From the IMG/VR virus record IMGVR_UViG_3300034375_003795, positions 1-25,819 of that record: DNA of 25,819 bases. The stretch is one strand, 5' to 3'. Within the stretch, counting starts at the first letter, position 1. Each line of letters starts with the position of its first letter. The DNA comes from a virus. Of this stretch, positions 2,904 through 25,819 are shown piece by piece. Made by a program: the position numbers and the translations under genes. The notes under the pieces are model-generated. The model searched no databases. It was not told where the DNA came from and saw nothing but the letters and a program-made list of their open reading frames with translations.

Positions 2904-4213
2904 TGTCGATTAAGAAGAACGGCGGCATTTTCGGTCGCAATCCGACCTACTATAACGTCGAGGTCGAAAATGATCTCCGAGTAGGCGGTGATCTCATCAT
3001 CAATGGCGAGACCGTTACCGGGCTTGATTTTGAAGGCTCATGGGATGCCAGCACCAACACGCCGGATGTGACGGCTTCGCCGACCGTAGGCCAGTTCTGG
3101 ATTGTCTCTGTTGCGGGCAGCACGGACCTCAGCGGCATCACAACCTGGGATGTAGGCGACTGGGCGCTCTATGACGGCTCCGCGTGGCAGCGGGTAGAAG
3201 GCGGCGGGAACGGCACGTTCACTAAAGTCAACGTGGACAACTTGCAGCTAGACGGCAACACGATCAGCAGCACGGACACTGACGGCGATGTTATTCTTGC
3301 GCCCAACGGAACTGGGCAAGTAGAGATTACAGGAACTCAGCCTGCTCGTATGTACGGAGCCGGGGGCAGCGGACTTATAAAAGGAGATGATCTTTTTACC
3401 ATATCATCTTCGGGCAAATTAGCTTCTTCACTCAAAAGCACCGGCGCCGCTATTATTGTGCTTGGCTCCGAAAGTGCAGGCGGTGGAGCGCAAGCGGGAA
3501 CCAATATTCAGTTCTGGACTAACGAGAATGGGTATACAAACACCGTTGTTGGTTTGAGGGCGGTAATAAATAGAAGGGGCGGCTTCGTCACTACGCCCAT
3601 TGCGGATGGGACAACTGTTTTCAACGAAGACGGTGTAGACGCCAACTTCCGCGTCGAATCTAGTACAGACCCCAGTGCGTTTTTTATAGACGGCGGGACA
3701 AGCGACGTAACAATCGGCTCGGGCAACCTCATCATCGGCACCTCGGGCAAAGGCATCGACTTCTCCGCCACCGCTGGCACTGGCACCAGCGAGCTGCTCA
3801 ACGATTATGAGGAAGGCACTTGGTCTCCGACTTACGATGACACTGGGGGCACTGGCTCTTATACCCAAGATGTCTCCCGTGGTTTGTATACAAAAGTTGG
3901 GAATAAAGTAACTGTTCATTTTGAGGTCAGGACTGATGCTGTTTCTGGTGCAACTGGGGATGTAATAATTACTGGCCTTCCTTTTACTCCGTCTGGGACA
4001 GACTACAATGAAACAGGTGTTGGGGCTGTTGCTGCTCTAACTATTCAAGGATTTACAACACAAGCGCCGACAGCTTGCGTAGCACAAGTATCTGGAAATA
4101 TTGCCTTAGTTTACGACAATGGTGGCGTCACAGCGAACCTTCCAGCGGCAAACCTTGGGACTGGCACAAACAGCAACAGACTGCGTGGAACAGTCACCTA
4201 CCTTATCGCATAA
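2903..4213 (+). CDS. Tail fibre / receptor-binding protein (436 aa)
   Basis: The start overlaps the previous stop. Residues 1-35 (IFGRNPTYYNVEVENDLRVGGDLIINGETV) look like a beta-prism-type repeat start. Residues about 38-105 form a module known from phage fibres: GSWDASTNTP, then VGQFWIVSVAGSTDL, then WDVGDWALYDGSAWQRVE. The middle (about 110-290) has repeated 'hydrophobic-x-D-G-x' strands typical of triple beta-spirals (LQLDGNTISSTDTDGDVIL). Residue 300 onward (NDYEEGTWSPTYDDTGG, then GLYTKVGNKVTVHFEV) is a C-terminal beta-sandwich that I recognise from many aquatic phage fibres, probably the receptor-binding tip. Base composition switches inside the gene: GC-rich 2903-3330, AT-rich about 3340-3710, GC-rich about 3710-3860, AT-rich again to the end. 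Confidence 0.75.
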   Translation: MSIKKNGGIFGRNPTYYNVEVENDLRVGGDLIINGETVTGLDFEGSWDASTNTPDVTASPTVGQFWIVSVAGSTDLSGITTWDVGDWALYDGSAWQRVEGGGNGTFTKVNVDNLQLDGNTISSTDTDGDVILAPNGTGQVEITGTQPARMYGAGGSGLIKGDDLFTISSSGKLASSLKSTGAAIIVLGSESAGGGAQAGTNIQFWTNENGYTNTVVGLRAVINRRGGFVTTPIADGTTVFNEDGVDANFRVESSTDPSAFFIDGGTSDVTIGSGNLIIGTSGKGIDFSATAGTGTSELLNDYEEGTWSPTYDDTGGTGSYTQDVSRGLYTKVGNKVTVHFEVRTDAVSGATGDVIITGLPFTPSGTDYNETGVGAVAALTIQGFTTQAPTACVAQVSGNIALVYDNGGVTANLPAANLGTGTNSNRLRGTVTYLIA

Positions 4214-8203: not shown

Positions 8204-10630
8204 ATGTCGGGCGTCAAAATCACAAGATTTTTGGGTAAGGCGCCAAAGATTTCTTCGGAGCTTTTGCCCGACACGGCAGCGCAGGTAGCCAGCAACTGCA
8301 AGCTGTACTCTGGGGATTTGATCCCCTACCCGGAGCCGGTGGTTGTCGATAACCTCAATCGCACCGGCCCGATCAAAACCCTCTATGTGCTGCGCGACCC
8401 GAGTACGGGCGATCTTGCGTGGTTGTCCTGGGCCACAGATGTGGACATCGCCGTCGCGACGGCAAACGACAACGACGAGCAGCGCTTCTACTACACGGGC
8501 GACGGGGTTCCGAAGGTCAGTAATTACCTCCTTGCCACGACCGGGGCTCCGCCCTATCCCGTGGATTATTACGAGCTAGGCCTTCCTGTCCCGCCCGACA
8601 CGGCGACTCTGACCACCAGTGCAGCGACTTTTACCACCAAGGCCACGGCGACCTACGCTCGGGATGCGGGCAGCATCGCCACTATCGTGACCTCGACACC
8701 CCACGGCTTGCGTACTGGCAATACGATCTCTGTCACCGGCTTCAGCTACCTCACGGGTACTTACAACCAAGCCGGTACGACGACCATCACGGTGACGCTC
8801 ACGGCTCACGGCCTGTCTAACGGCGCCTCGGTTACGCTGGACTTCACCTCGGGCACGGCGACCGATGGCACCTTCGTCATTTCCAACGTGACGGCTAACA
8901 CCTTCGACATCACCGCCGATGTGGCGGCGACCACCAGCGGCAACGTCAACTGGAACATCAGCAACTTCAACACCTCCGGGTCCATCGTGACGGTCGTCAA
9001 CAGCACGACTTTCACCTACTTCAGCCCCGGTTTTGCAGTTACGACCACGGCCTACACCGATGGCCGCGTTGAGCTTGGGGGCCTTACCCAGTCTCGGACC
9101 TATGTGTTCACTTGGTTCACGCCCTGGGAAGAAGAGTCCATCGCCTCCAAACCCTCAGCAACTTTGTACGAGAAGGAAGGGGTTACCGTTACCGTGAGTA
9201 ACATGCCCACGGCGCCGCCGTCTGGGCAGAACTTTGTGCGTGGTGTACGGCTCTACCGCACGATCACCTCCACGGCGGGTACGGAGTATTTCCGCCTGCA
9301 GACTCTGTGGTTCCCCACGGCCCTGCTCACTGTGCAGCGCACGAGCAACGTATCGCGTGTAACCCTGCTGTACCCGCACAACTTCGGCATCGGTGATCGC
9401 TTCAAGATCAGTGGCTGCACGGACGCCACCTTCGACATCACCGGCGGGATCGTTACGGACCTCATCGACGACAACACCTTTGAGTACGCGCAGGTTGCTG
9501 CGGATGTGCCGTCTACGAGCGTGGGTGCTGGCACCCTGTACCATGATGTGTCTGAAAACCCGCCGACCACGGCGGCGCGCTACTGGGGTGATTCGACCTA
9601 CGACTTCACGGACGACTTCGACTCCTTGGCACTTACGGACATTCTGGCTTCGGACGAGTACGACCCGCCCCCGGATAATCTTGAGGGTCTGACGACCATC
9701 CAGAACAACATCCTCGCGGGCTTTGTGGGCAACCAGTTGTACTTCAGCGAGCTGGGCCTGCCGCACGCGTGGCCCCGTCGCTACGTCGAAACCATCGAAC
9801 ACGACATTGTGGGCCTCGCCGCCATCAGCGGCTCCGTGCTGGTGCTGACGGATTCCTATCCCTACATTGCCACCGGCTCCGATCCGGCCAATATGTCGGT
9901 CTCGCGCATCGACGTTCAGTACCCCTGCCTCAACCGCAGGAGCATCGTGAATATGGGCTACGGGGTGGTGTACTCCACCCACGATGGGCTGGCGATGTAT
10001 TCGCCCAGCGCAGGCCCGCAGATCATCACCAAGTTTCTCTACAATAACGACACTTGGGAAACGGCCCTCGATCCGGCCACGATCATCGCCGAGTATTACG
10101 GTGAGAACTATTTTGCCTCCCACTCTACGGGGGCTTTCGTCTTTGAGCAGGACACCAAGGTCGGTGGGTTCTTTGTTGACACGGACGTAACATTTACTGC
10201 GTCGTTCTTCGACACGGTGGGTGGCAAGCTGTACTTTGTCTCGGGCACGAACGGCGACGTTTACCTCTGGGATGAGCTTACCCAGCCCAGCAAGACCATG
10301 ACTTGGAAGTCCAAGACCATCAAGACTGCGGACATGATTAACCTCGGCGCAGCGCGGGTCATTGCGGACTACAGCACGGTCACCTCGACCTGGGACTTGG
10401 ATACGCAGCAGTGGGAGTCGGCGCTTACCAACTGGAACTCCGCCGATGAGATCACCTTCAATCTGTGGGTGGACAAGCAGCTTGAGTACACCACGACCGT
10501 AAACGACACGAATGTTTTCCGTATGCCCAGCGGCTACCGCTCGGACACCTTTGAGGTTTCTGTTGAGGGCAACGTCCGGGTTCGGGCAATCCACCTTGCA
10601 CAGACGCCCACAGGGCTCAGGCAGGCATAA
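8204..10630 (+). CDS. Nozzle / tail tubular protein B-like structural protein (808 aa)
   Basis: The likely role is the distal tail tube (nozzle) of a short-tailed phage. The length is close to T7 gp12 (about 794 aa). The N-terminus (ISSELLPDTAAQVASNCKLYSG, then DLIPYPEP) has the 'all-proteins-then-Asn, gain-of-strand' entry typical of nozzle-like proteins. The second half is beta-propeller-like, with strands such as NNILAGFVGNQLYFSELG, AISGSVLVLTDSYPYIATG, MGYGVVYSTHDGLAMYSP and GGKLYFVSGTNGDVYLWDE. Three inserted beta repeats with a 'hydrophobic-x-PHGL-x-x-G' core occur near residues 160, 195 and 382. TAGGAG at 8193-8198 precedes the ATG. The next gene overlaps its stop (TAATG). The family assignment is by architecture, not by search. 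Confidence 0.6.
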   Translation: MSGVKITRFLGKAPKISSELLPDTAAQVASNCKLYSGDLIPYPEPVVVDNLNRTGPIKTLYVLRDPSTGDLAWLSWATDVDIAVATANDNDEQRFYYTGDGVPKVSNYLLATTGAPPYPVDYYELGLPVPPDTATLTTSAATFTTKATATYARDAGSIATIVTSTPHGLRTGNTISVTGFSYLTGTYNQAGTTTITVTLTAHGLSNGASVTLDFTSGTATDGTFVISNVTANTFDITADVAATTSGNVNWNISNFNTSGSIVTVVNSTTFTYFSPGFAVTTTAYTDGRVELGGLTQSRTYVFTWFTPWEEESIASKPSATLYEKEGVTVTVSNMPTAPPSGQNFVRGVRLYRTITSTAGTEYFRLQTLWFPTALLTVQRTSNVSRVTLLYPHNFGIGDRFKISGCTDATFDITGGIVTDLIDDNTFEYAQVAADVPSTSVGAGTLYHDVSENPPTTAARYWGDSTYDFTDDFDSLALTDILASDEYDPPPDNLEGLTTIQNNILAGFVGNQLYFSELGLPHAWPRRYVETIEHDIVGLAAISGSVLVLTDSYPYIATGSDPANMSVSRIDVQYPCLNRRSIVNMGYGVVYSTHDGLAMYSPSAGPQIITKFLYNNDTWETALDPATIIAEYYGENYFASHSTGAFVFEQDTKVGGFFVDTDVTFTASFFDTVGGKLYFVSGTNGDVYLWDELTQPSKTMTWKSKTIKTADMINLGAARVIADYSTVTSTWDLDTQQWESALTNWNSADEITFNLWVDKQLEYTTTVNDTNVFRMPSGYRSDTFEVSVEGNVRVRAIHLAQTPTGLRQA

Positions 10631-16343: not shown

Positions 16344-19300
16344 ATGGCAAAAGCTGGCCTGACGTTTGAAAGCTCCCTTTACCAAGACATCGGTGGATCG
16401 CCTGTAGCGCCGGTAAATCCCTACACGGGGTTGAATGCTGCGGCATCCACGGGTGCTGATGCCCTTCGTCGAGGTTTGGCTGACATTGCCATAGCAGGGG
16501 AGCAGGCGCGTGGCGCCCTCCAGTCTCAGTTCACCATGCCCACCATGCGTCCGCCTGCGCGGACCGAGCCCGATACCTACTTCAACCCTGCCACTCGCCA
16601 GCTCTATATCAACGGCATCATTGTGGACGAGCAGGACGAAGCGGGTATCGTCAACGCAGCGCGAGCGGTTGGGCAGGGGCAAGCTGGCGCACCGCAAGGG
16701 GAAGGCTGGCAGGCTCTGCCGGGCAACGTGCTACCCAGCATCGTTCAGGGCATCGAAGACCCCACCATGGGGCGCCTTATCTCTCGCAACATTGGCCGTG
16801 GCGTCGATGTTATGCAGATGCTTGGCGGTCAGGCGCTGCGCTTTGCCGGTGCTGAAGAACTGGGCCGGGGCATCGTCGAACAGCAAGAAGCTGACCTTGC
16901 CAGAACTGCGCCCTACGAGCGGACCTTCACGGAAATTGAAAACGCCGATGACCTCGGCGACTGGTTCGTAGCCAACTTTGCTCAGCAAGTACCCAACATT
17001 CTTGAGTCTATCGCGGCTGCAGGGGCAGGTGCTGCGGCGGGCGCTGCTTTAGGTACGGCTGCTGGCCCTGTGGGCACGGCGGTCGGTGGTGCGCTTGGCG
17101 GCATCGGTGGATTCATCGGGAAACTTCTTGCCAAGCAAGGGGTTAAGAACGCCGTAACGAAGGCGGCTGCGAAGAAGGCCGCCGGGCAAGTGCTCGACAC
17201 CGCAGAGCGTAAGCTCCTGAACAAAGTCGGTGGTGCTGCGGCAGCTACCTTTGCCTCCAGTTACGGCATGGGCATCGGTGATATTTACGGCGAGCAGATT
17301 GAAGGCGGCGCGCCTGATCGGGTCAAGGCAGCTTTGTCTGCCATTCCCTACGCCACCCTTGAATCTGTGGGTGACCTGTTCCTCGGTTCTCGCGTTCTGG
17401 CGCCTACTGCGCGCACCCGACGCACGCTCGTTACGCCCGATGGGGAAACCACGATCACTACTGGGACGGGTCTGCTGGGTCGTGTAGGCCGTGGCGTTGC
17501 TGCCGGTGGCGCCGTTGAAGGTACCACTGAGGCGCTGCAAGAAGTTATCAACATCGCGAACAACCCGTCCGTAGACTTCGACAGCCCGGAAGCGATCAAC
17601 CGCCTGATTAACTCCTTCGCTGCTGGTGCTGCCATCGGTGGTCCCCTCGCTGGTGCTGGTGCGGTTCGCTCACCCGTTGAAGATTTGGGCCGCATGGAAC
17701 TGCTGCCTCCCCCTCCTCCTCGCGTTGATACTGAGCAGCAAGACGCTAACCTGCTGAATCCACAGCAGTCTGCGGCGCTGCCTACGCCGACCACACAAGA
17801 AGAACGCGCTGCAAGCGCGGTGGAAGCAACGGGCCTTGGTCCTCGCGAACCGGGTATGGCGCCCGGTCAACGCCTTCTCATGGGTGGTGCAGCTCCTGGC
17901 CAGTTTGGCCCGCAGGGTGTACTTGATCTTGGCCCTCAGCCCGTGGCTGATGTGGCTAGGCTGTCTCGGCGGCCAACGCCGGTGCTGCCTGAAGCACGGC
18001 GCCAAGAGTTAGGGCTTCCTTCCCCTCCGCTTCCAGAAGCGTTGATTCCGTTCCAGCCGGAGATTTCAGAACGGCAAGTTCCTCTTGATTTTGCTCCGCC
18101 TGCACCCGGCGGTGTTCGCTTCACGGAGGAACAGCAGGTAGCCAACCCGGTCCTGCAGCGTCGTCTGGCTGCAGAGCTGGCAGAGCAGCAGCGCCAAGCG
18201 CAGTTGCAAGCGCAGCGGGATGCGGACTACACGCGAGCCCTACGGCAGCGTGAAATGCAGATTGCTCAGCAGGGGCAGCCGCCTGCCGTTGGTGTTGTTC
18301 CTTCGCCCCGCGTGCAGGGCGCACCGCAGACTGCAGCAGAACAACTTCGCTTGTTCGGTCGTCGTGCCATGCCGACGCCCTCTCGGGCACAGGCTGAGGC
18401 AGCCGCACGTTTGCGTCGTGGAACTGTTCCACCGGCAGCACCGGCAGCCGCACAGCAACAACTTGGTCTACAGCGTGAAGCACAGCAACTTGGTCTGCCC
18501 TACATCGGCCAGCCGGTTACGACCGAGCAGGCTCAGGAAACGTGGAACGACCAGCGTCCGCGCAACGTGCGCAAGTGGGATAACCTGTCCGAAGAGCGCC
18601 AAGCCCAGTGGGCTGATGCCATTGCTAATGGCCGCGCCACCCCTGCCCTGCGCAAAGAGATTAGCCGCCAAGAGTCGGCGGGAAGGCTACGTCCCCGCCC
18701 TGCTGAGGAGCCTACAGATGCCGTTCAAGAGCCAAGCTCAGCGCCGGTACCTACACGCGCAGCACCCGAAGATCGCGAAGCGGTGGGAGAAGGAGTACCC
18801 GGTGAAGGGGCCGCTCCCAGAGCGGAGGAACAAGCGGAAGTAAAAAAGCCCCAAGCGGCGGCACCCGTCGCCGCAGAAGAAAGACCCGCAGAACCTGAAG
18901 CCGAGGTTGCAGCGGAGCCGGAACCTGCGCCCGAGCCTGAAGTCGTTGAAGAACCCGCACCCGAGCCGGTGGCCGAAGCTGTTGAACCACGCAGCCCGCA
19001 GGAAAGCTGGGACGAAGAGGTGGAACCCGGCGATGTGAAATACGCCGATCTGCCGCAGGCAGCCAAGGATGAGTGGGCTGACTCGGACTTCAGTGGCGCA
19101 GCCATGATCGTCATCATGGACCGTATCGACGAAGGCGACATCAAAATGACTGTCGCCGAGACCTTCAATTATTACTTGGCTGTGGCTGATGCAGCGCTGG
19201 ATGCCAACAACATTGATCGGTTTAACGAGGCGTTGCCCACGCTTGTGGAAACGGCGTACTTCACGAACGAAAGCCCCAACACCATTGAGCGCATCAACGA

Positions 19301-22300
19301 AGCTCGCGAGTATCTGGCTGACGTAGACAACTTCAACGCTGCCCAGCAGAACGCCATCGTCGATCAAATCGTTGAGCAGATGCCGCAGCGCATCGACGCT
19401 CGTTACACCCGTGGCGCCAACAAGGGCGCAGCCAAGCCGTGGTACACCTTCTTACAAGCCATGCCCGGTGCGCTACAGCGCGTAACCAACAAAGGCACGG
19501 TGTTCAGTGGGCTGACCCAAGAAGAAGCGCAGTCCCTCCTCGACCGTGGTGTCCTCTACGAAACCAACCTACCTGCGTCCACGCTCAAGGCGTTAGGCAA
19601 AGAGCAGACTGCGACTCAAGAAGCCGACGCCAATCCTCAGCGCAGCCCAGCCGTCAAGCTGGCAGCTCTCATCCGTGACACCAATGGCCGCACCACTTCG
19701 GTCAGTCCGTCCACGCAAGCCGACATCAAGCGGAACCTTGCGGACCTGTGGGATGAGGTGCAGGAAAAAGACATCGACACCACGGAGCAAGATGCGCTCC
19801 TTGGTAACCCGCTCAGTGCCTACTTCGACGAAGATGGTCAGCCCATCACCAACACGATTTCTGGGCGCTTGCGTATTGCAACGAAGAAGCTCACGCAGGA
19901 ACAACTTTCTGAGGCAGAGGCCACGCGCCGTGCCGATGCACAAGCGCAGAAAGAAGCGGACGAGCTGGGCGACATCCCCACGCTGGAGGACTACGACGAG
20001 TACGCCGACCGCGATACGGATGAACCTACGTCTTGGCTCCGTGCCATGGAAGAGGGCGACGGGCGCTTTGCCCGTGCTGAGGGCCGCACGTTTAACAAGC
20101 CCATGGCGAAGGGCCGCGTGCAGTTTATGGTTCGCGCATTCCTCAACAAGTTGGCGATCAAGCCGCGTGTCTATGTGTACCGCAACCAAGACGAACTGCG
20201 CACCCAGAACCGCAAGCTCTACGACCGGGCCGCTGCCGCTCGCCCGCAGGGTGACTTCGCCACTATCCCTGCCAAGGGGTACTCCTTCGGCAAGAACGAG
20301 ATCATCCTGTTCACTGACCGGCTGCTGACCGAAGATGATGTGAACTTCGTCCTGGCCCACGAGACCAATGGTCATATCGGTCTGCGCGCTCTGATCCCTG
20401 CCAAGCAATTCGACCGGCTCATGGAGTCTATCTACGACGCCGACGACTCCATCCGCGACGCGGTGGATGCCAGCATGGAAGTGCGTGGCATGGGCAAGGC
20501 TGAGGCAGTGGAGGAATATCTGGCTGATTTCGCAGCGGACCTCGACGTTAGCCTGATTAACCGCATCTGGAACGCCATCAAGGGTGCCCTCAACAAGCTG
20601 GGTGTGAAGTTCGGCGATGAGGTGTCCCGCTACTGGGTGAACCAAGCCCGGCGCTATGTGCGCAACGGGGAGGTGAGCCACCCCTTCACCATCGGTGGCG
20701 ATATGGGCATGGCCTTCGCCATTGAGACCGGGCAAGACCCGGAGAACGTGGGCCGCTTCTCGCAACCGCATACGCTGCGCAGTGCCAACCTTGCTGCTGG
20801 CCTCATGGTGGACAACGTAGGCGGGAACCTCACCAGCATCGAAGAGGCCGCCCGTACAATCCGTGACTCCGTTGGTGATGCACGCGACGCTGCCGACAAG
20901 TTCCTGGCAAGTGCTTTCAGCTTGCTCAACTACCGTGTTCGGGAGAACCCCGGCTTCTCTGCACTAGAGCGTGTGTTGAACGAGGGTCGTGGCATTGCCA
21001 TGAAGGTCAAGAACTCGCTCAACGAGACCATGCGTCCCCTGCTCGCTCGGGCTGTGAAGGTGCCCTTCTCTGACATTGAGGTCGGTGGCATCACCGAAGC
21101 CCAGCGCGAGACTGTCCACAAGATGCTTTACGATGCGCAGCGCCGCGCATCCAGCCGCATTACGCGATTGAGCCAGCTTGGCAAGACGCCGCTCTACACC
21201 TTGGACGAGGCCACCGGGTCACTGATCCCGAATCAACCTGAGATCGACCGGCTTGTGGCTCAAGGCCGCATTACTCTTGAGGAAGCGCGCAACGGCTACT
21301 CTTATGAGGCCAAGTTTGAGCAAGATGGTAGGACGGTCACTGAAACAGTACAGGTGCCCGGAATCCCTGGCCTGACCGAAGACAGCATCGAGTGGAAAGC
21401 CTACGTCGCTGCCCGTGACGCTATGCAGGCGGTTGAGTTGGAAATGCTCAAGGCCCGCTATGTGGCGAACATCCAAGAGCGTGATCTGGTCTTCCGTGAA
21501 ATAGGCAACATGACCAACACGCGGGAGCTGGCCTCGGGGGAGAAGCAGTTCTTCGACCGCATGTACCGCACCTACCGAGACCTGTGGCTGGCTGACCAAA
21601 CCACCGATGAGAACGGCGACCCGGCACTCAACCCGGAGTCCATTGAGAAGGCCAACGAGTTTATCGAAGCCCTGAACGCCGCCATCATTGGCCGTGGTAC
21701 GGACCGCAACGAAGCACTCAGAGCCTATTTCGACGGCGCTGCCTTCGACGATGTGGTGGCTTCCATCGAAGCCTTTAAGGATCGCTTCGCCCTGAGCGAC
21801 GACACGCGTTTCGTTGTGCAGAACCAGATGAAGAAGCTGGTGGTGGATGAAATCTCCAACAGCGACGCGGACCTGTACACCAAGCGGTCACTCGCCAGCG
21901 GCTACACGCCTTTGATTCGTGAAGGTGCGTTCCAAGTTCGAGTCATGGCAAAGGACAAGAACGGTAATGATGTTCTCCTGAAAGACTCCTACAAAGAACA
22001 ACTGGTCTACTCGCAGTTTGAGCGGGAAAGCGAAGCCAAGCGGTTTGCGGAACTTACCAACGAAGCTTTCACGGATGACAATGGCAACACGCGCACGTTC
22101 AAGGTGGAAGCCTACGACTCCAAGACTCGGGAGTATGTGCAGACTGAGGTGACGCTCCAAGCTGTGCCGGAGGCTGCGCTGGATTCCATTTCCGTGCCGC
22201 CTGAGCTGAACCTCAACGACTTTGTGCGTGGCTTGCGGCGCTTCGATATTAACCTCGCTCCCAAGAAGCTGGAGCAGGTGGTGGTCGCCATGACGCGCCA

Positions 22301-24323
22301 GAACAACCGTGCGCGTAACCGCCTACAGCGGGCCTTCGTCCCCGGCGCCAGCACTGATGCGTCCAAGGCTATCTCTCAGCATATCGAAGCGCGGGCTTCC
22401 AGCATCGCCAAAATCCTCATGCGTCCTCGCATCAGCGAGCTGACCAACCTCAACATGCGCTCCACGCAACGCTTGTGGAACGGTGATGCCGAGAAGCTGG
22501 CAGCCCTCAAGGCCGAGTACGAGGCAACCCGCGACGACCCGCAGGCTACTGACGAAGCCAAGATGTACGCCAAGCGTGAGTACGACCGCTATGCCTACAT
22601 GTACGAGCGGACCAACCCCACGGGCGAAGCCTCTCGGGCCAACCAGTATTTCAACGAGGCCACTCGGGTGCTGGGCTTCCTTGAGTCCAACCAAGACATC
22701 GTGGAGTCGGACTTCGGTGCTGGCCGTGTGGCTTCTAGTATTCGCGCCTGGACCAGTATGGCCCAGCTCGGTGGCTCCATCGCCACGGGCGCCCTGAACT
22801 ACTTGGGTGCTGTCACCAACGGCATCCCGTACCTCGCGACGTACAACGACAAGACTGCCTTCGGCGGTGGCTTTGGCTTTGGCAAGTCGGTCTCCCAGTT
22901 CATGACGGCGCTCAACCAAGTGGGTCTGCTCAAGGCAATCGGCGGTCGCCTCAACGGCGTCGATATGAACACGGCTGCGTTTTACGATGCAGTCGCTGCT
23001 GACCCGGAACTGCAGAAGCAGTACAACTTGAGTGAGCGCGAAGCGCGATTCCTCGCTCTGGAAATCCGTGAAGGTGAAATGATCCCTGCCCTCACCAACG
23101 CCATGGTGGGCTCTGCTCGGGGCCGGGTGACCAGTGGTGCTGCTCAGAAAGCCATTGACGGATGGATGTGGACCTTCAACTCCACGGAGCAAGCGACGCG
23201 CCGTGCTCTCGGACTGTCTGCCTACCGCATGTCCTTTGACCGTGCCAAGGCTGCGGGGCTCAGCGATGCTGATGCCAACGCCAAAGCTCGGGACTTCGCG
23301 GTCTCTGCGCTGCGCTACACGGTGGGGGACTACTCGGTGATTAACCGGCCTCCGATCTGGCGCAGTGGCATCCAGTCGTTCATCTACATGTACAAGGTCT
23401 TCCCGACCACCACGATCCAGCTTCTGAAGCGGCTGCCCCGACAGGGCCAAATCTACATGCTGGCGTCGCTGTTCGTCCTCGGTGGCATGACGGCCTTCCC
23501 CTTCGCTGAGGACATCGAAGACCTGCTCGACAGCATTGCCCAAGCACTTGGGTTTGGGACGGCCAGCGTTCGCTTTGAGATCGCCAAGGCCATCGACTCC
23601 GTGGCACCGGGCCTGTCTCCCTTCGCCATGCGTGGCTTCGCCAACGCCTACCTCGGCCTCAACTTGGCGGATCGGATCAGTGCGGGTAACTTCATCCCCG
23701 GCACGGGCATCTTCCTAGCCGGTGCGGACGTAGGCCGCGAACTCACGGACATCATGGGACCGGCGGCATCCTTCCTCACTGGTGCGGCGACCGCCTTCCC
23801 GCAAGCTATTCGTGCGGTGGCAACTGAGCGGGTGGACTTTGTGGATGTGTTCCGTGAGTCGCCCATCACCATGCTCCGGGCCTTTGGTGACATGTACGCC
23901 TACACCCAAGCGGGTGCCATCGTGGACAAGCGGGGCTATGTGGTTTCCCCTGACCTCTCCGCGTACACCATGGTGGGGCGTGTGCTGGGCTTCTACCCGG
24001 CGGCTGCCTCTGAGCAGTACGATGTTATCCGGGTCTCCCGCCGCATCGTGGACTACCAACGTGAAGTAACTTCTGGCTTCCGCACCGCGTGGATCAAGGC
24101 CAACATCGAACGGGACCGGGAGAAGCAACGCGCCATCGAAGACGCGGTGCGGCAGTGGAATGAGGTGAACCGGGGCACGGCGCTGGAGATCAGGAACTTC
24201 CGCCAAAACTCTGTCCGTGCCCTACGCGAAGCCCAGCGTCCTGCTGGTGAGCGGTTCCTCCGCACTACCCCAAGGGCAGCGCGGGATGAGGTGGCAACGG
24301 TAGCCGAACTCCTCGGCTACTAA
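16344..24323 (+). CDS. Giant polyvalent virion protein with zincin-like metallopeptidase domain (2659 aa)
   Basis: This protein probably rides in the capsid, is ejected with the DNA and helps entry or host takeover. Visible parts in order: an N-terminal disordered region; residues about 222-265, a Gly/Ala membrane-like stretch (AAAGAALGTAAGPVGTAVGG) with further hydrophobic pieces to 440; Pro/Gln-rich linkers to about 720; a Trp-containing domain at about 730-778 and its second copy at about 884-932, separated by a Pro/Glu/Ala linker. At residues 1339-1344 a metallopeptidase motif HETNGH is followed by GLRALI, with candidate third ligands E1390/E1391 in VEEYLADF. Long helical regions follow to the end, with a late hydrophobic segment (about 2369-2390). 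Polyvalent phage proteins with such zincin domains are known (Iyer, Burroughs and Aravind). The stop overlaps the minus-strand gene by four bases. Confidence 0.8.
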   Translation: MAKAGLTFESSLYQDIGGSPVAPVNPYTGLNAAASTGADALRRGLADIAIAGEQARGALQSQFTMPTMRPPARTEPDTYFNPATRQLYINGIIVDEQDEAGIVNAARAVGQGQAGAPQGEGWQALPGNVLPSIVQGIEDPTMGRLISRNIGRGVDVMQMLGGQALRFAGAEELGRGIVEQQEADLARTAPYERTFTEIENADDLGDWFVANFAQQVPNILESIAAAGAGAAAGAALGTAAGPVGTAVGGALGGIGGFIGKLLAKQGVKNAVTKAAAKKAAGQVLDTAERKLLNKVGGAAAATFASSYGMGIGDIYGEQIEGGAPDRVKAALSAIPYATLESVGDLFLGSRVLAPTARTRRTLVTPDGETTITTGTGLLGRVGRGVAAGGAVEGTTEALQEVINIANNPSVDFDSPEAINRLINSFAAGAAIGGPLAGAGAVRSPVEDLGRMELLPPPPPRVDTEQQDANLLNPQQSAALPTPTTQEERAASAVEATGLGPREPGMAPGQRLLMGGAAPGQFGPQGVLDLGPQPVADVARLSRRPTPVLPEARRQELGLPSPPLPEALIPFQPEISERQVPLDFAPPAPGGVRFTEEQQVANPVLQRRLAAELAEQQRQAQLQAQRDADYTRALRQREMQIAQQGQPPAVGVVPSPRVQGAPQTAAEQLRLFGRRAMPTPSRAQAEAAARLRRGTVPPAAPAAAQQQLGLQREAQQLGLPYIGQPVTTEQAQETWNDQRPRNVRKWDNLSEERQAQWADAIANGRATPALRKEISRQESAGRLRPRPAEEPTDAVQEPSSAPVPTRAAPEDREAVGEGVPGEGAAPRAEEQAEVKKPQAAAPVAAEERPAEPEAEVAAEPEPAPEPEVVEEPAPEPVAEAVEPRSPQESWDEEVEPGDVKYADLPQAAKDEWADSDFSGAAMIVIMDRIDEGDIKMTVAETFNYYLAVADAALDANNIDRFNEALPTLVETAYFTNESPNTIERINEAREYLADVDNFNAAQQNAIVDQIVEQMPQRIDARYTRGANKGAAKPWYTFLQAMPGALQRVTNKGTVFSGLTQEEAQSLLDRGVLYETNLPASTLKALGKEQTATQEADANPQRSPAVKLAALIRDTNGRTTSVSPSTQADIKRNLADLWDEVQEKDIDTTEQDALLGNPLSAYFDEDGQPITNTISGRLRIATKKLTQEQLSEAEATRRADAQAQKEADELGDIPTLEDYDEYADRDTDEPTSWLRAMEEGDGRFARAEGRTFNKPMAKGRVQFMVRAFLNKLAIKPRVYVYRNQDELRTQNRKLYDRAAAARPQGDFATIPAKGYSFGKNEIILFTDRLLTEDDVNFVLAHETNGHIGLRALIPAKQFDRLMESIYDADDSIRDAVDASMEVRGMGKAEAVEEYLADFAADLDVSLINRIWNAIKGALNKLGVKFGDEVSRYWVNQARRYVRNGEVSHPFTIGGDMGMAFAIETGQDPENVGRFSQPHTLRSANLAAGLMVDNVGGNLTSIEEAARTIRDSVGDARDAADKFLASAFSLLNYRVRENPGFSALERVLNEGRGIAMKVKNSLNETMRPLLARAVKVPFSDIEVGGITEAQRETVHKMLYDAQRRASSRITRLSQLGKTPLYTLDEATGSLIPNQPEIDRLVAQGRITLEEARNGYSYEAKFEQDGRTVTETVQVPGIPGLTEDSIEWKAYVAARDAMQAVELEMLKARYVANIQERDLVFREIGNMTNTRELASGEKQFFDRMYRTYRDLWLADQTTDENGDPALNPESIEKANEFIEALNAAIIGRGTDRNEALRAYFDGAAFDDVVASIEAFKDRFALSDDTRFVVQNQMKKLVVDEISNSDADLYTKRSLASGYTPLIREGAFQVRVMAKDKNGNDVLLKDSYKEQLVYSQFERESEAKRFAELTNEAFTDDNGNTRTFKVEAYDSKTREYVQTEVTLQAVPEAALDSISVPPELNLNDFVRGLRRFDINLAPKKLEQVVVAMTRQNNRARNRLQRAFVPGASTDASKAISQHIEARASSIAKILMRPRISELTNLNMRSTQRLWNGDAEKLAALKAEYEATRDDPQATDEAKMYAKREYDRYAYMYERTNPTGEASRANQYFNEATRVLGFLESNQDIVESDFGAGRVASSIRAWTSMAQLGGSIATGALNYLGAVTNGIPYLATYNDKTAFGGGFGFGKSVSQFMTALNQVGLLKAIGGRLNGVDMNTAAFYDAVAADPELQKQYNLSEREARFLALEIREGEMIPALTNAMVGSARGRVTSGAAQKAIDGWMWTFNSTEQATRRALGLSAYRMSFDRAKAAGLSDADANAKARDFAVSALRYTVGDYSVINRPPIWRSGIQSFIYMYKVFPTTTIQLLKRLPRQGQIYMLASLFVLGGMTAFPFAEDIEDLLDSIAQALGFGTASVRFEIAKAIDSVAPGLSPFAMRGFANAYLGLNLADRISAGNFIPGTGIFLAGADVGRELTDIMGPAASFLTGAATAFPQAIRAVATERVDFVDVFRESPITMLRAFGDMYAYTQAGAIVDKRGYVVSPDLSAYTMVGRVLGFYPAAASEQYDVIRVSRRIVDYQREVTSGFRTAWIKANIERDREKQRAIEDAVRQWNEVNRGTALEIRNFRQNSVRALREAQRPAGERFLRTTPRAARDEVATVAELLGY
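18531..18675 (+). repeat. Duplicated Trp-domain, copy 1, in the giant protein
   Basis: Residues about 730-777 contain AQETWNDQ, then VRKWDNLSEERQAQWADAI. The same order (QE-[ST]-W-[ND], V-[RK], L, then WAD) recurs at 18993-19140. This suggests an old internal duplication flanking the linker that carries the nested gene. Confidence 0.6.
18705..18710 (+). promoter_or_regulatory. Ribosome binding site of the nested 41-aa gene
   Basis: GAGGAG lies seven bases before the ATG at 18718. In the giant frame these bases code for Glu-Glu. The site is as good as those of the regular genes of this operon and fixes the start of the nested gene. Confidence 0.7.
18718..18843 (+). CDS. Nested out-of-frame gene: 41-aa MPFKS-AQRR family phage protein
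   Basis: This complete frame lies wholly inside the giant polyvalent gene, shifted by one base relative to it. The product starts MPFKSQAQRRYLHAQHPK and ends with LPERRNKRK, with IAKRWEKEY between. I recognise this as a small phage protein family (pattern MPFKS-x-AQRR-x-x-x, K-x-W-E-x-E, LPER, Lys-rich end), normally encoded as a free-standing gene and of unknown function. Its strong basic charge suggests nucleic-acid or polyanion contact. A GAGGAG site seven bases upstream fits translation. In the giant frame the same bases encode low-complexity Ala, Pro, Glu and Gly, where a second message is easily tolerated. An open frame does run upstream to 18220, but that part looks like a shadow, not a family member. 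Confidence 0.72.
   Translation: MPFKSQAQRRYLHAQHPKIAKRWEKEYPVKGPLPERRNKRK
18993..19140 (+). repeat. Duplicated Trp-domain, copy 2, in the giant protein
   Basis: Residues about 884-932 contain SPQESWDEE, then DVKYADLPQAAKDEWADSD, matching copy 1 (18531-18675) in order and spacing of Trp, Leu and WAD. Similarity is clear at protein level only; the DNA has diverged. Confidence 0.6.
24300..24320. terminator. Stem-loop on the convergent stop codons, possible bidirectional 3'-end element
   Basis: The arms GTAGCCGA (24300-24307) and TCGGCTAC (24313-24320) pair perfectly over 8 bp around a 5-base loop (24308-24312). The right arm touches both stop codons of the two converging genes (TAA at 24321-24323 on +, TAG at 24322-24320 on -). 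Neither strand shows a T-run after the stem, so classical intrinsic termination is doubtful. mRNA 3'-end protection or a roadblock between convergent transcripts is possible. Confidence 0.4.
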
Positions 24324-25819
24324 ACCCCCTTGAGTTGCCCCAGGGCCAAGTCCTCTGCGGCTTGGTCCGCATCGTCTAGGATGCCGTGGAGTCTGGGGTG
24401 GTTGAGGTTCACCCCAATGACGTAGCTCTGGCCCAGCTTAACCGGCGTGTCCTTACCGAGATAGGCTTTCTGGGACTTGGGCGTCGCCACCACGTTCTCA
24501 TCCGCAAGCTCATTCGTGAAGGACTTATAGTCTGCCCCTCGGGCAGCGAGCCAGCGGCGGAAGTGGGTGCGGTCTACCATCACCGTGCCCCGGTCAAAGG
24601 GCGAAGCCGAGTCACCCCGGTACAGATCGAAGCGTACCCTGATGTCTGCTCGTGGCATGTGGGCGTAGTCTGGGGTGGGCTTCTGGGTTCCGGTGTGCAT
24701 GATTGTGACTGCTGCGTCGGCAGAGTCGTTGAGGTATTCCGTCAGCAGGTCGAAGGCGTCCACCTTGTTCTCGACGATTGTCCGCCGGATGGCGCCAACC
24801 TGATGGAGCACCCAGTCAATGCCCTGGGAGTGATCGAAGTCAATGAAGTCCCAGTCCTTGGCAAGCTGCCCGGCGAAGTCAGCGAAGATGATGGCCTGCT
24901 CCCAGTACCGCTCCTCGCCTCTGAAGTTTGCCTTGTATCGTCGGTGGAATGTATTCGTGGCTTCTGCGATCCCGGCGCGAATGCCCTCCGGTCCAAGCTC
25001 CATCAACTTCTTGAGGAATGCCAACCCAACGTGGCCGTGGTTCGCACTGAGGAAATCGTAAATCTTCCGCCCGGCCTCGCTGTCCTTGGTGAAGAGCGGG
25101 TGCGACGGCACACTGACCTCAAGTATCCGGGCCATCTGCGCATCCGTATCCAACCCTGATGCGATCAGCTTGGAGGACAGAGAACGATTGGTAGAAACTG
25201 TCACAGGCATAGCCCAGGTCTTGGCATCCCGCTCCTCAGCGTTGCGGTTGAGCCGCGCCTTGTCCCGCCCCTGGCTTACCCAGTAGGCGAAGTCCCCCAC
25301 TTCCTTGTCCGCCATCATGGTTACTTCGTCGATGGTCATGGGCAGGTGGGCGTAGAAACCCATGCGCCCGAACAAGGTGTTCTGGGTAAACTTGGCTGCG
25401 AAGTGCAGCTTCTCGGGCACACCCCAGACAGACTGCTGCCAATACTGCGCCAGCGTTTTGCCACCCCCGGTGGGGCCGTAGAGGGATACGGTCAGGCCCT
25501 TCAGGCCAGTGAATGCGTAGAGGGGAGCGGACAGGCTCACGCACAGGGCAAACATGTGGGCCTTGAGATCGGCTTTCTCCAACAAGCTGGTGAACTTCAC
25601 CCAGTTACCTAAGTCGCCTGCGCATTCATACAGCTCGTTGCCTAGGCGCTGGCTTCCCGAGGAGAGGGCGATGTCCTCCTCCGATACGCTTCCATCTGCG
25701 TTGCGGCGCAGAATCGTGTTGCCGATGACAAACTGCGAGAAGTTTTCCTTCCATCCCATGGTGGAGTAGAGGTTTGTCATGGCCCGCTTCTGCCGCAACT
25801 CGTCCATGTATGAGCGCAG
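24320..25819 (-). CDS. DUF927-like P-loop ATPase, probable replicative helicase (5' partial)
   Basis: The gene runs leftwards; the frame is still open at the right window edge, and the first Met in view (codon at 25807-25805) is not necessarily the start. Counting from that Met: a helical N-terminal part (1-100), Walker A GPTGGGKT at 111-118, SVWGVPEKL with the family's post-Walker region, Walker B-like MTIDEV at 157-162 with catalytic DE, and a sensor-1-like VTVSTNRSL at 202-210. Together with the Trp-Gly after Walker A this matches DUF927-type helicase-like ATPases, which in phages and plasmids often follow a primase domain and help open DNA for replication. The missing N-terminus could carry such a domain. 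The C-terminal 150 residues are not recognised. It is the only minus-strand gene here and begins another functional arm. Confidence 0.75.
   Translation of the reverse strand: MRSYMDELRQKRAMTNLYSTMGWKENFSQFVIGNTILRRNADGSVSEEDIALSSGSQRLGNELYECAGDLGNWVKFTSLLEKADLKAHMFALCVSLSAPLYAFTGLKGLTVSLYGPTGGGKTLAQYWQQSVWGVPEKLHFAAKFTQNTLFGRMGFYAHLPMTIDEVTMMADKEVGDFAYWVSQGRDKARLNRNAEERDAKTWAMPVTVSTNRSLSSKLIASGLDTDAQMARILEVSVPSHPLFTKDSEAGRKIYDFLSANHGHVGLAFLKKLMELGPEGIRAGIAEATNTFHRRYKANFRGEERYWEQAIIFADFAGQLAKDWDFIDFDHSQGIDWVLHQVGAIRRTIVENKVDAFDLLTEYLNDSADAAVTIMHTGTQKPTPDYAHMPRADIRVRFDLYRGDSASPFDRGTVMVDRTHFRRWLAARGADYKSFTNELADENVVATPKSQKAYLGKDTPVKLGQSYVIGVNLNHPRLHGILDDADQAAEDLALGQLKGV

Follow-up and report, generated by a model that had tools for sequence, protein, structure and literature searches.

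A small-protein gene nested out of frame in a giant phage gene, at a position that evidence marks as a slot for exchangeable genes

The window analyzed here is the whole of a 25.8-kb virus record (IMG/VR record IMGVR_UViG_3300034375_003795; 25,819 nucleotides) and represents a late-gene block of a podovirus-like phage, with genes for tail-spike-like proteins, an endolysin, an internal virion protein matching phrog_511 (8204-10630, plus strand), a giant protein and a convergent primase/helicase-like protein. The giant gene lies downstream of the phrog_511 gene in the same late-gene block and is a single open reading frame (ORF) encoding 2,659 amino acids (16344-24323, plus strand). Its product matches phrog_11358 (E = 1.5e-34), gives tblastn matches (E = 2e-16 to 3e-24) to records annotated as DarB-like, PLxRFG or structural, and is colinear over its whole length with the giant of a related locus, L001 (52-54% identity), on both sides of the position discussed below. 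By homology it qualifies as a giant of the polyvalent or DarB/PLxRFG-like structural type; its assignment as a virion protein rests on how these relatives are annotated (structural, DarB-like, PLxRFG). The convergent DUF927/primase-helicase-like gene (24320-25807, minus strand) shares four bases with it, the two genes overlapping at their stop codons.

Completely enclosed in the giant gene, in its +1 frame, is an ORF of 41 codons (18718-18843, plus strand) that translates as MPFKSQAQRRYLHAQHPKIAKRWEKEYPVKGPLPERRNKRK followed by a stop codon. A Shine-Dalgarno (SD) sequence, GAGGAG (18705-18710, plus strand), precedes its ATG with a 7-nt spacer. Read in the giant's frame, at about codon 792, the same bases (18717-18842, plus strand) encode a Pro/Glu/Ala-rich, disordered-looking linker, DAVQEPSSAPVPTRAAPEDREAVGEGVPGEGAAPRAEEQAEV, with a net charge of -7, against +10 for the nested peptide. 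The nested frame happens to be open for 192 codons upstream of the ATG in the window, which is why an ORF lister reports it as 18220-18843; most relatives have a stop 0-40 codons ahead of the corresponding MPF start, identifying 18718 as the conserved start. At least 430 relatives of the nested gene were found in IMG/VR, with the identical +1 frame in every giant host checked, so that the ORF cannot be put down to chance. As a complete ORF with its own start signals in a different frame of another gene, it is an embedded gene by definition, and at the level of sequence 18718-18843 is confirmed as real and complete, although its translation has not been shown. A preliminary description of this DNA had proposed just such a complete out-of-frame gene, belonging to a usually free-standing phage family and having its own start signals, and had judged a chance origin unlikely; the SD sequence, the ATG, the 41 codons, the homologues and the constant frame bear out both points.

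Members of this family, which we call type A, share the motif MPFKSxxQRR..(A)xxPxxAxxW followed by a basic tail, both present in the window protein, and M1, P2, S5, Q8, P17 and A20 are invariant in three alignments (A1, A6 and A9). Against phrog_1375, the window protein alone scores no better than E = 0.052, and 33 of 50 aligned type A members match this profile weakly (best E = 2.9e-5). This family of unknown function is known as a separate gene, with no annotation as a nested one. No Pfam family fits the type A protein, and when Pfam, PHROG, PDB sequences and PDB folds were searched for what the 41-aa protein might do, only the weak phrog_1375 link emerged. A tblastn search with the 41-aa product did recover the expected relatives, including separate genes in Streptomyces phages (gp48, directly ahead of the holin gene), in phage 023Pt_psg01 and, unannotated, in phage C75C1; free-standing homologues also occur in many contigs. 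The relatives in IMG/VR were retrieved with an alignment of these tblastn matches. With homologues outside the overlap, the gene does not fit the criterion for de novo overprinting, under which they would be absent. At other loci (L023, L024, L027, L032, L033, L051, L072 and L093) type A forms, in frame, the N terminus of proteins of 440-1225 aa, and the protein of L072 carries DUF6321.

Judged by their reading frames, type A genes lie out of frame, always +1, in at least five types of host gene: window-like giants, L052-like giants, L055-like giants, a gene of ~410 aa and an 11-kb structural-protein gene of elemo phages. Two loci with hosts of only 158 and 164 aa (L036 and L092) were excluded as evidence of nesting. 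The nested frame of L001, VPFQSQAQRKYLHANNPKLAKEWEQKYPPKGKLPPK, is preceded by AAAGGAG and is identical to that of the window at 23 of 36 positions, compared with 15 of 36 in the giant frame and 15 of 36 in the unused frame. Giant loci, 80 in all, were collected with giant sequences by means of peptide patterns outside the slot. The patterns of scans A4 and A5 lie outside it; scan A8, whose pattern lies inside the slot itself and therefore biases the carrier rate upward, was left out of the prevalence estimate. A large share of the 80 loci carry type A, around giant codons 740-1170 (complete ORFs), and the frame retained in these homologous giants is always +1. All carrier genomes examined contain a single type A copy. 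In L089, L062 and L303, a free-standing type A gene directly follows the stop codon of an L052-like giant.

The ~410-aa family was likewise surveyed by means of patterns that avoid the slot. Of its 80 loci, 75 contain a nested +1 ORF that begins with MP, and a further one, L257, has it inside a longer ORF. A variant, MPFKHKRQMIAMLLSKSPKTVATAKKWLKKYGPPKKK, occupies the same slot in L183, L185-L189, L191 and others; it may be a diverged type A or a third family. In Flavobacterium phage elemoF and podovirus ctfjg026, a relative of the ~410-aa gene is flanked by the portal gene and another structural gene and does not contain the nested gene; given this position, the host gene may encode a scaffolding or head protein. 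One such host gene (L098:4820-6043) has no Pfam or PHROG match. Elemo phages carry a type A member, MPFKSKAQMKACYSQDNPKWDCKKWSKETPNKKSLPNKVKKK, at +1 within the 11-kb structural-protein gene, and it is present in 68 Flavobacterium elemo records (some of them RefSeq duplicates). When ctfjg026 was compared with a 600-base elemo query, DNA similarity was limited to 131 bases spanning the nested gene.

Many window-type giants without type A carry an unrelated small gene, type B (MPLKKGSSNKVVSANV...), at the equal position, in the +1 frame and with its own SD sequence. Type B proteins match phrog_2423 (3e-10 to 4e-7) and also DUF6496 (PF20106), the latter below its own cut-off; of 83 HMM hits among the loci surveyed, 71 are free-standing genes and 12 are nested at +1 in a large ORF. 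Scored on a tree of window-type giants, 32 carry A, 16 carry B and 21 carry neither, with carriers and non-carriers interspersed; since no recognised cassette is found in 21 of 69 scorable giants, the cassette is not essential to the giant. One tight clade combines all three states (A in L127, B in L147, L148 and L160, empty in L146). The giants of L127 and L147 share 88% identity; at the DNA level they hardly differ up to the end of the SD sequence, diverge from the start codon and become similar again past the cassette. In L161, compared with L130, the slot segment is cleanly missing. With A, B or nothing at the equal position in closely related giants, the evidence points to a slot for exchangeable small genes. 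A search of annotated phages with the giant and with type B found no isolate with an occupied window-type slot, and a scan of genome contigs returned only four distant giants, none with the cassette.

The presence of carriers in both halves of the deep tree, at a single position and in a single frame, could also reflect a single ancient overprint that was inherited vertically and in places lost, without exchange of cassettes. Such an origin would have to account for 14 changes between A, B and empty states on the giant tree (4 of them between A and B), for an unrelated B gene in the equal slot of giants 81-88% identical to A carriers, and for the occurrence of the type A family in unrelated host genes and as free-standing genes. 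Contradicted above all by the mixture of A, B and empty states among near-identical giants, it remains very unlikely.

Three further loci were observed. At L292:5977-6048, a 1-nt shift breaks the giant frame just upstream of the slot, probably through an assembly error, the alternative being a real split. At L331:5001 and L347:1381, type B is nested at +1 in giants of 2,268 and 2,178 codons, at codons 548 and 459, respectively; these giants are possibly further host families.

Start signals are conserved together with the nested genes. In giants, the nested start is ATG or GTG followed by a Pro codon, and an SD 4-mer precedes 47 of 56 such starts, compared with 1,326 of 7,086 control starts, the controls being the remaining ATG and GTG codons that these giants have in that frame (p about 1e-25). 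By type, the SD core is found at 33 of 41 type A and 14 of 15 type B starts. These signals bear on programmed frameshifting, whereby slipping ribosomes would make a shortened giant ending in a basic C-terminal domain and no separate small protein, as the long open stretch upstream of the nested start in the window would allow. Many relatives have an in-frame stop 0-10 codons ahead of the nested ATG or GTG (0 codons in L234, 1 in L087 and L217, 2 in L019 and 4 in L052), the start codon and Pro are conserved with an SD sequence in giants, and the boundary of the A/B swap falls on the start codon; frameshifting is accordingly an explanation to which we attach only minimal weight. In ~410-aa hosts, none of 72 nested starts has an SD sequence (0/72), so that initiation there would need another route. 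Annotated relatives infect Flavobacterium. Bacteroidota are known not to depend on SD sequences.

We then compared conservation in the three frames of the overlap. For type A genes in giants (first 27 codons), mean amino acid identity is 0.60 in the nested frame, 0.39 in the giant frame and 0.45 in the unused frame, with the nested frame ahead of the giant frame in 423 of 430 pairs; the corresponding means for type B are 0.57, 0.36 and 0.38, with nested above giant in 118 of 119 pairs. Across 26 close pairs, changes that are synonymous in the nested frame and nonsynonymous in the giant frame are in excess (197.5 observed versus 84.5 expected), those that are synonymous in the giant frame and nonsynonymous in the nested frame are depleted (57.5 versus 96.8), and the giant frame has no deficit of nonsynonymous changes (288.5 versus 249.6 expected, summed). 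The pairs are drawn from related sequences and are not independent, so these counts are descriptive. This substitution pattern indicates purifying selection on the nested protein and none on the giant's residues in the overlap beyond an open frame. Selection on both products, which the preliminary description had raised as one possible origin, is not what is seen: the giant's amino acids are no better conserved there than those of the unused third frame, and only openness is kept.

Openness itself is strictly maintained. The giant frame is open across the cassette in 41 of 41 type A and 15 of 15 type B carriers, as is the host frame in 72 of 72 of the ~410-aa hosts; given the nested protein and giant codon usage, the openness expected by chance averages 0.03 or less. 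The host-equivalent frame is open in only 4 of 44 free-standing genes, from which we infer that the main source for filling a slot is another nested copy. The codon for Phe3 is TTC in 30 of 30 giant-nested genes with Phe and TTT in 27 of 42 free genes; TTT before Lys would create a stop in the giant.

The same selection weighs against a relic, in which two virion genes would have fused across a small gene to form the giant, leaving a nested frame in decay. The slot does lie within a variable linker, the giant of L159 is split at the slot (L159:10589-13707) by two inserted ORFs (245 and 539 aa), neither of which matches Pfam, and diverged copies exist in L103, L106 and L170. Purifying selection on the nested frame is nevertheless strong, start and stop codons are retained, and even these diverged copies still have an SD sequence, a start codon and an ORF of 59-67 codons. 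The fusion of two neighbors that had been put forward is not demonstrated, the evidence favoring an exchangeable slot, and a decaying relic is extremely improbable. A constraint on the DNA itself, such as a packaging or recombination site encoding no protein, could suit a slot that is a recombination point, but can practically be discarded given that conservation tracks nested codon position (0.65, 0.83 and 0.56 at positions 1, 2 and 3), that two unrelated sequences occupy one place and that free-standing homologues exist elsewhere.

We therefore favor, with a probability of roughly 0.86, a late-expressed, exchangeable small-gene cassette residing in a linker that the giant virion gene can do without. 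Sequence alone shows the nested gene and its conservation, the selection on it, the constant frame, and slots that are swapped or empty; translation, late timing and exchange by recombination are inferred. On the late mRNA, some ribosomes would read the giant frame while others would initiate separately at the internal SD sequence and ATG to make a strongly basic two-helix protein of 41 aa. Selection would act on the small protein, the giant frame across the cassette being a passenger that must merely stay open, and the cassette would be exchanged among slots between phages, always at +1, with A and B replacing each other or leaving the slot empty.

In AlphaFold models, type A is predicted to form a hairpin of two helices plus a basic tail (pLDDT 84) and type B to form two helices (pLDDT 70); a PDB fold search with the type A model found no match. 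Mean net charge is +11 for A and +12.5 for B, and both lie in or adjoining virion genes. The likeliest function, held at somewhat less than even odds, is that of a nucleic-acid-binding accessory protein made together with the virion proteins, which, late in infection, could be packaged with phage DNA or host nucleic acid or could act on either; binding is inferred. Cassette turnover suggests an anti-host or anti-defense role as the main alternative. A broader proposal, which could just as well prove wrong as right, is that a standing pool of cassettes fit for the +1 frame of disordered virion linkers is swapped through recombination events that use the shared SD region upstream as their anchor, perhaps supplying late anti-host or anti-defense peptides.

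The closest precedent is lambda Rz1 in Rz, likewise a small gene that lies whole within a second phage gene at +1; mutations in the ~40 host codons that it overlaps are silent, and linkers can replace this stretch (PMC5295617). Rz1, however, is a lysis lipoprotein that partners the product of its host gene, whereas the hosts here are giant or other virion genes, the small genes are soluble, basic and from families that are also free-standing, and slot content swaps between unrelated families. A two-component spanin (Rz/Rz1) was considered and rejected, as the nested product, a basic peptide of two helices, has neither a secretion signal nor a lipobox. Viral overprinting, such as phiX174 E in D and others, also involves same-strand overlaps that are mostly +1, but the nested frame there usually arises de novo and has no homologues (Pavesi review, PMC8227390); here, the nested gene is widespread and conserved and the host frame across the overlap is the unconstrained novelty. 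The host giant resembles the polyvalent phage proteins (Iyer 2017, PMC5512222), its relatives being annotated as DarB-like. That article describes cassette-like domain ORFs near the main gene; it contains nothing on "overlapping," "linker" or "disordered," and uses "nested" and "reading frame" for other matters. The open-access literature searched yielded no earlier account of phrog_1375, phrog_2423, DUF6496 or such nested genes. Within that literature an exchangeable out-of-frame slot appears undescribed, embedded +1 phage genes being already known.

These observations reverse the usual order of overprinting: here the nested gene is the old, transferable one, and it is the large host frame that is improvised. 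Unrelated small genes swapped out of frame within near-identical giants would amount to modular exchange inside another gene, and an alternative-frame cassette system, if true, would be invisible to standard annotation. As had been predicted for annotators, the elemo records that were opened list only the giant and leave the nested gene unannotated. Gene callers and proteomic databases miss such genes, even in 68 phage records, and small proteins of late phage genes are consequently undercounted.

A separate observation concerns phage C75C1 (L018:3001-3254), whose record has annotated genes on either side of a type A gene but no annotation for that gene itself. A 55-aa ORF matching phrog_27331 (7e-29) overlaps, in a different frame, the coding sequence annotated next (3066-3254), for which the record may have chosen the wrong frame.
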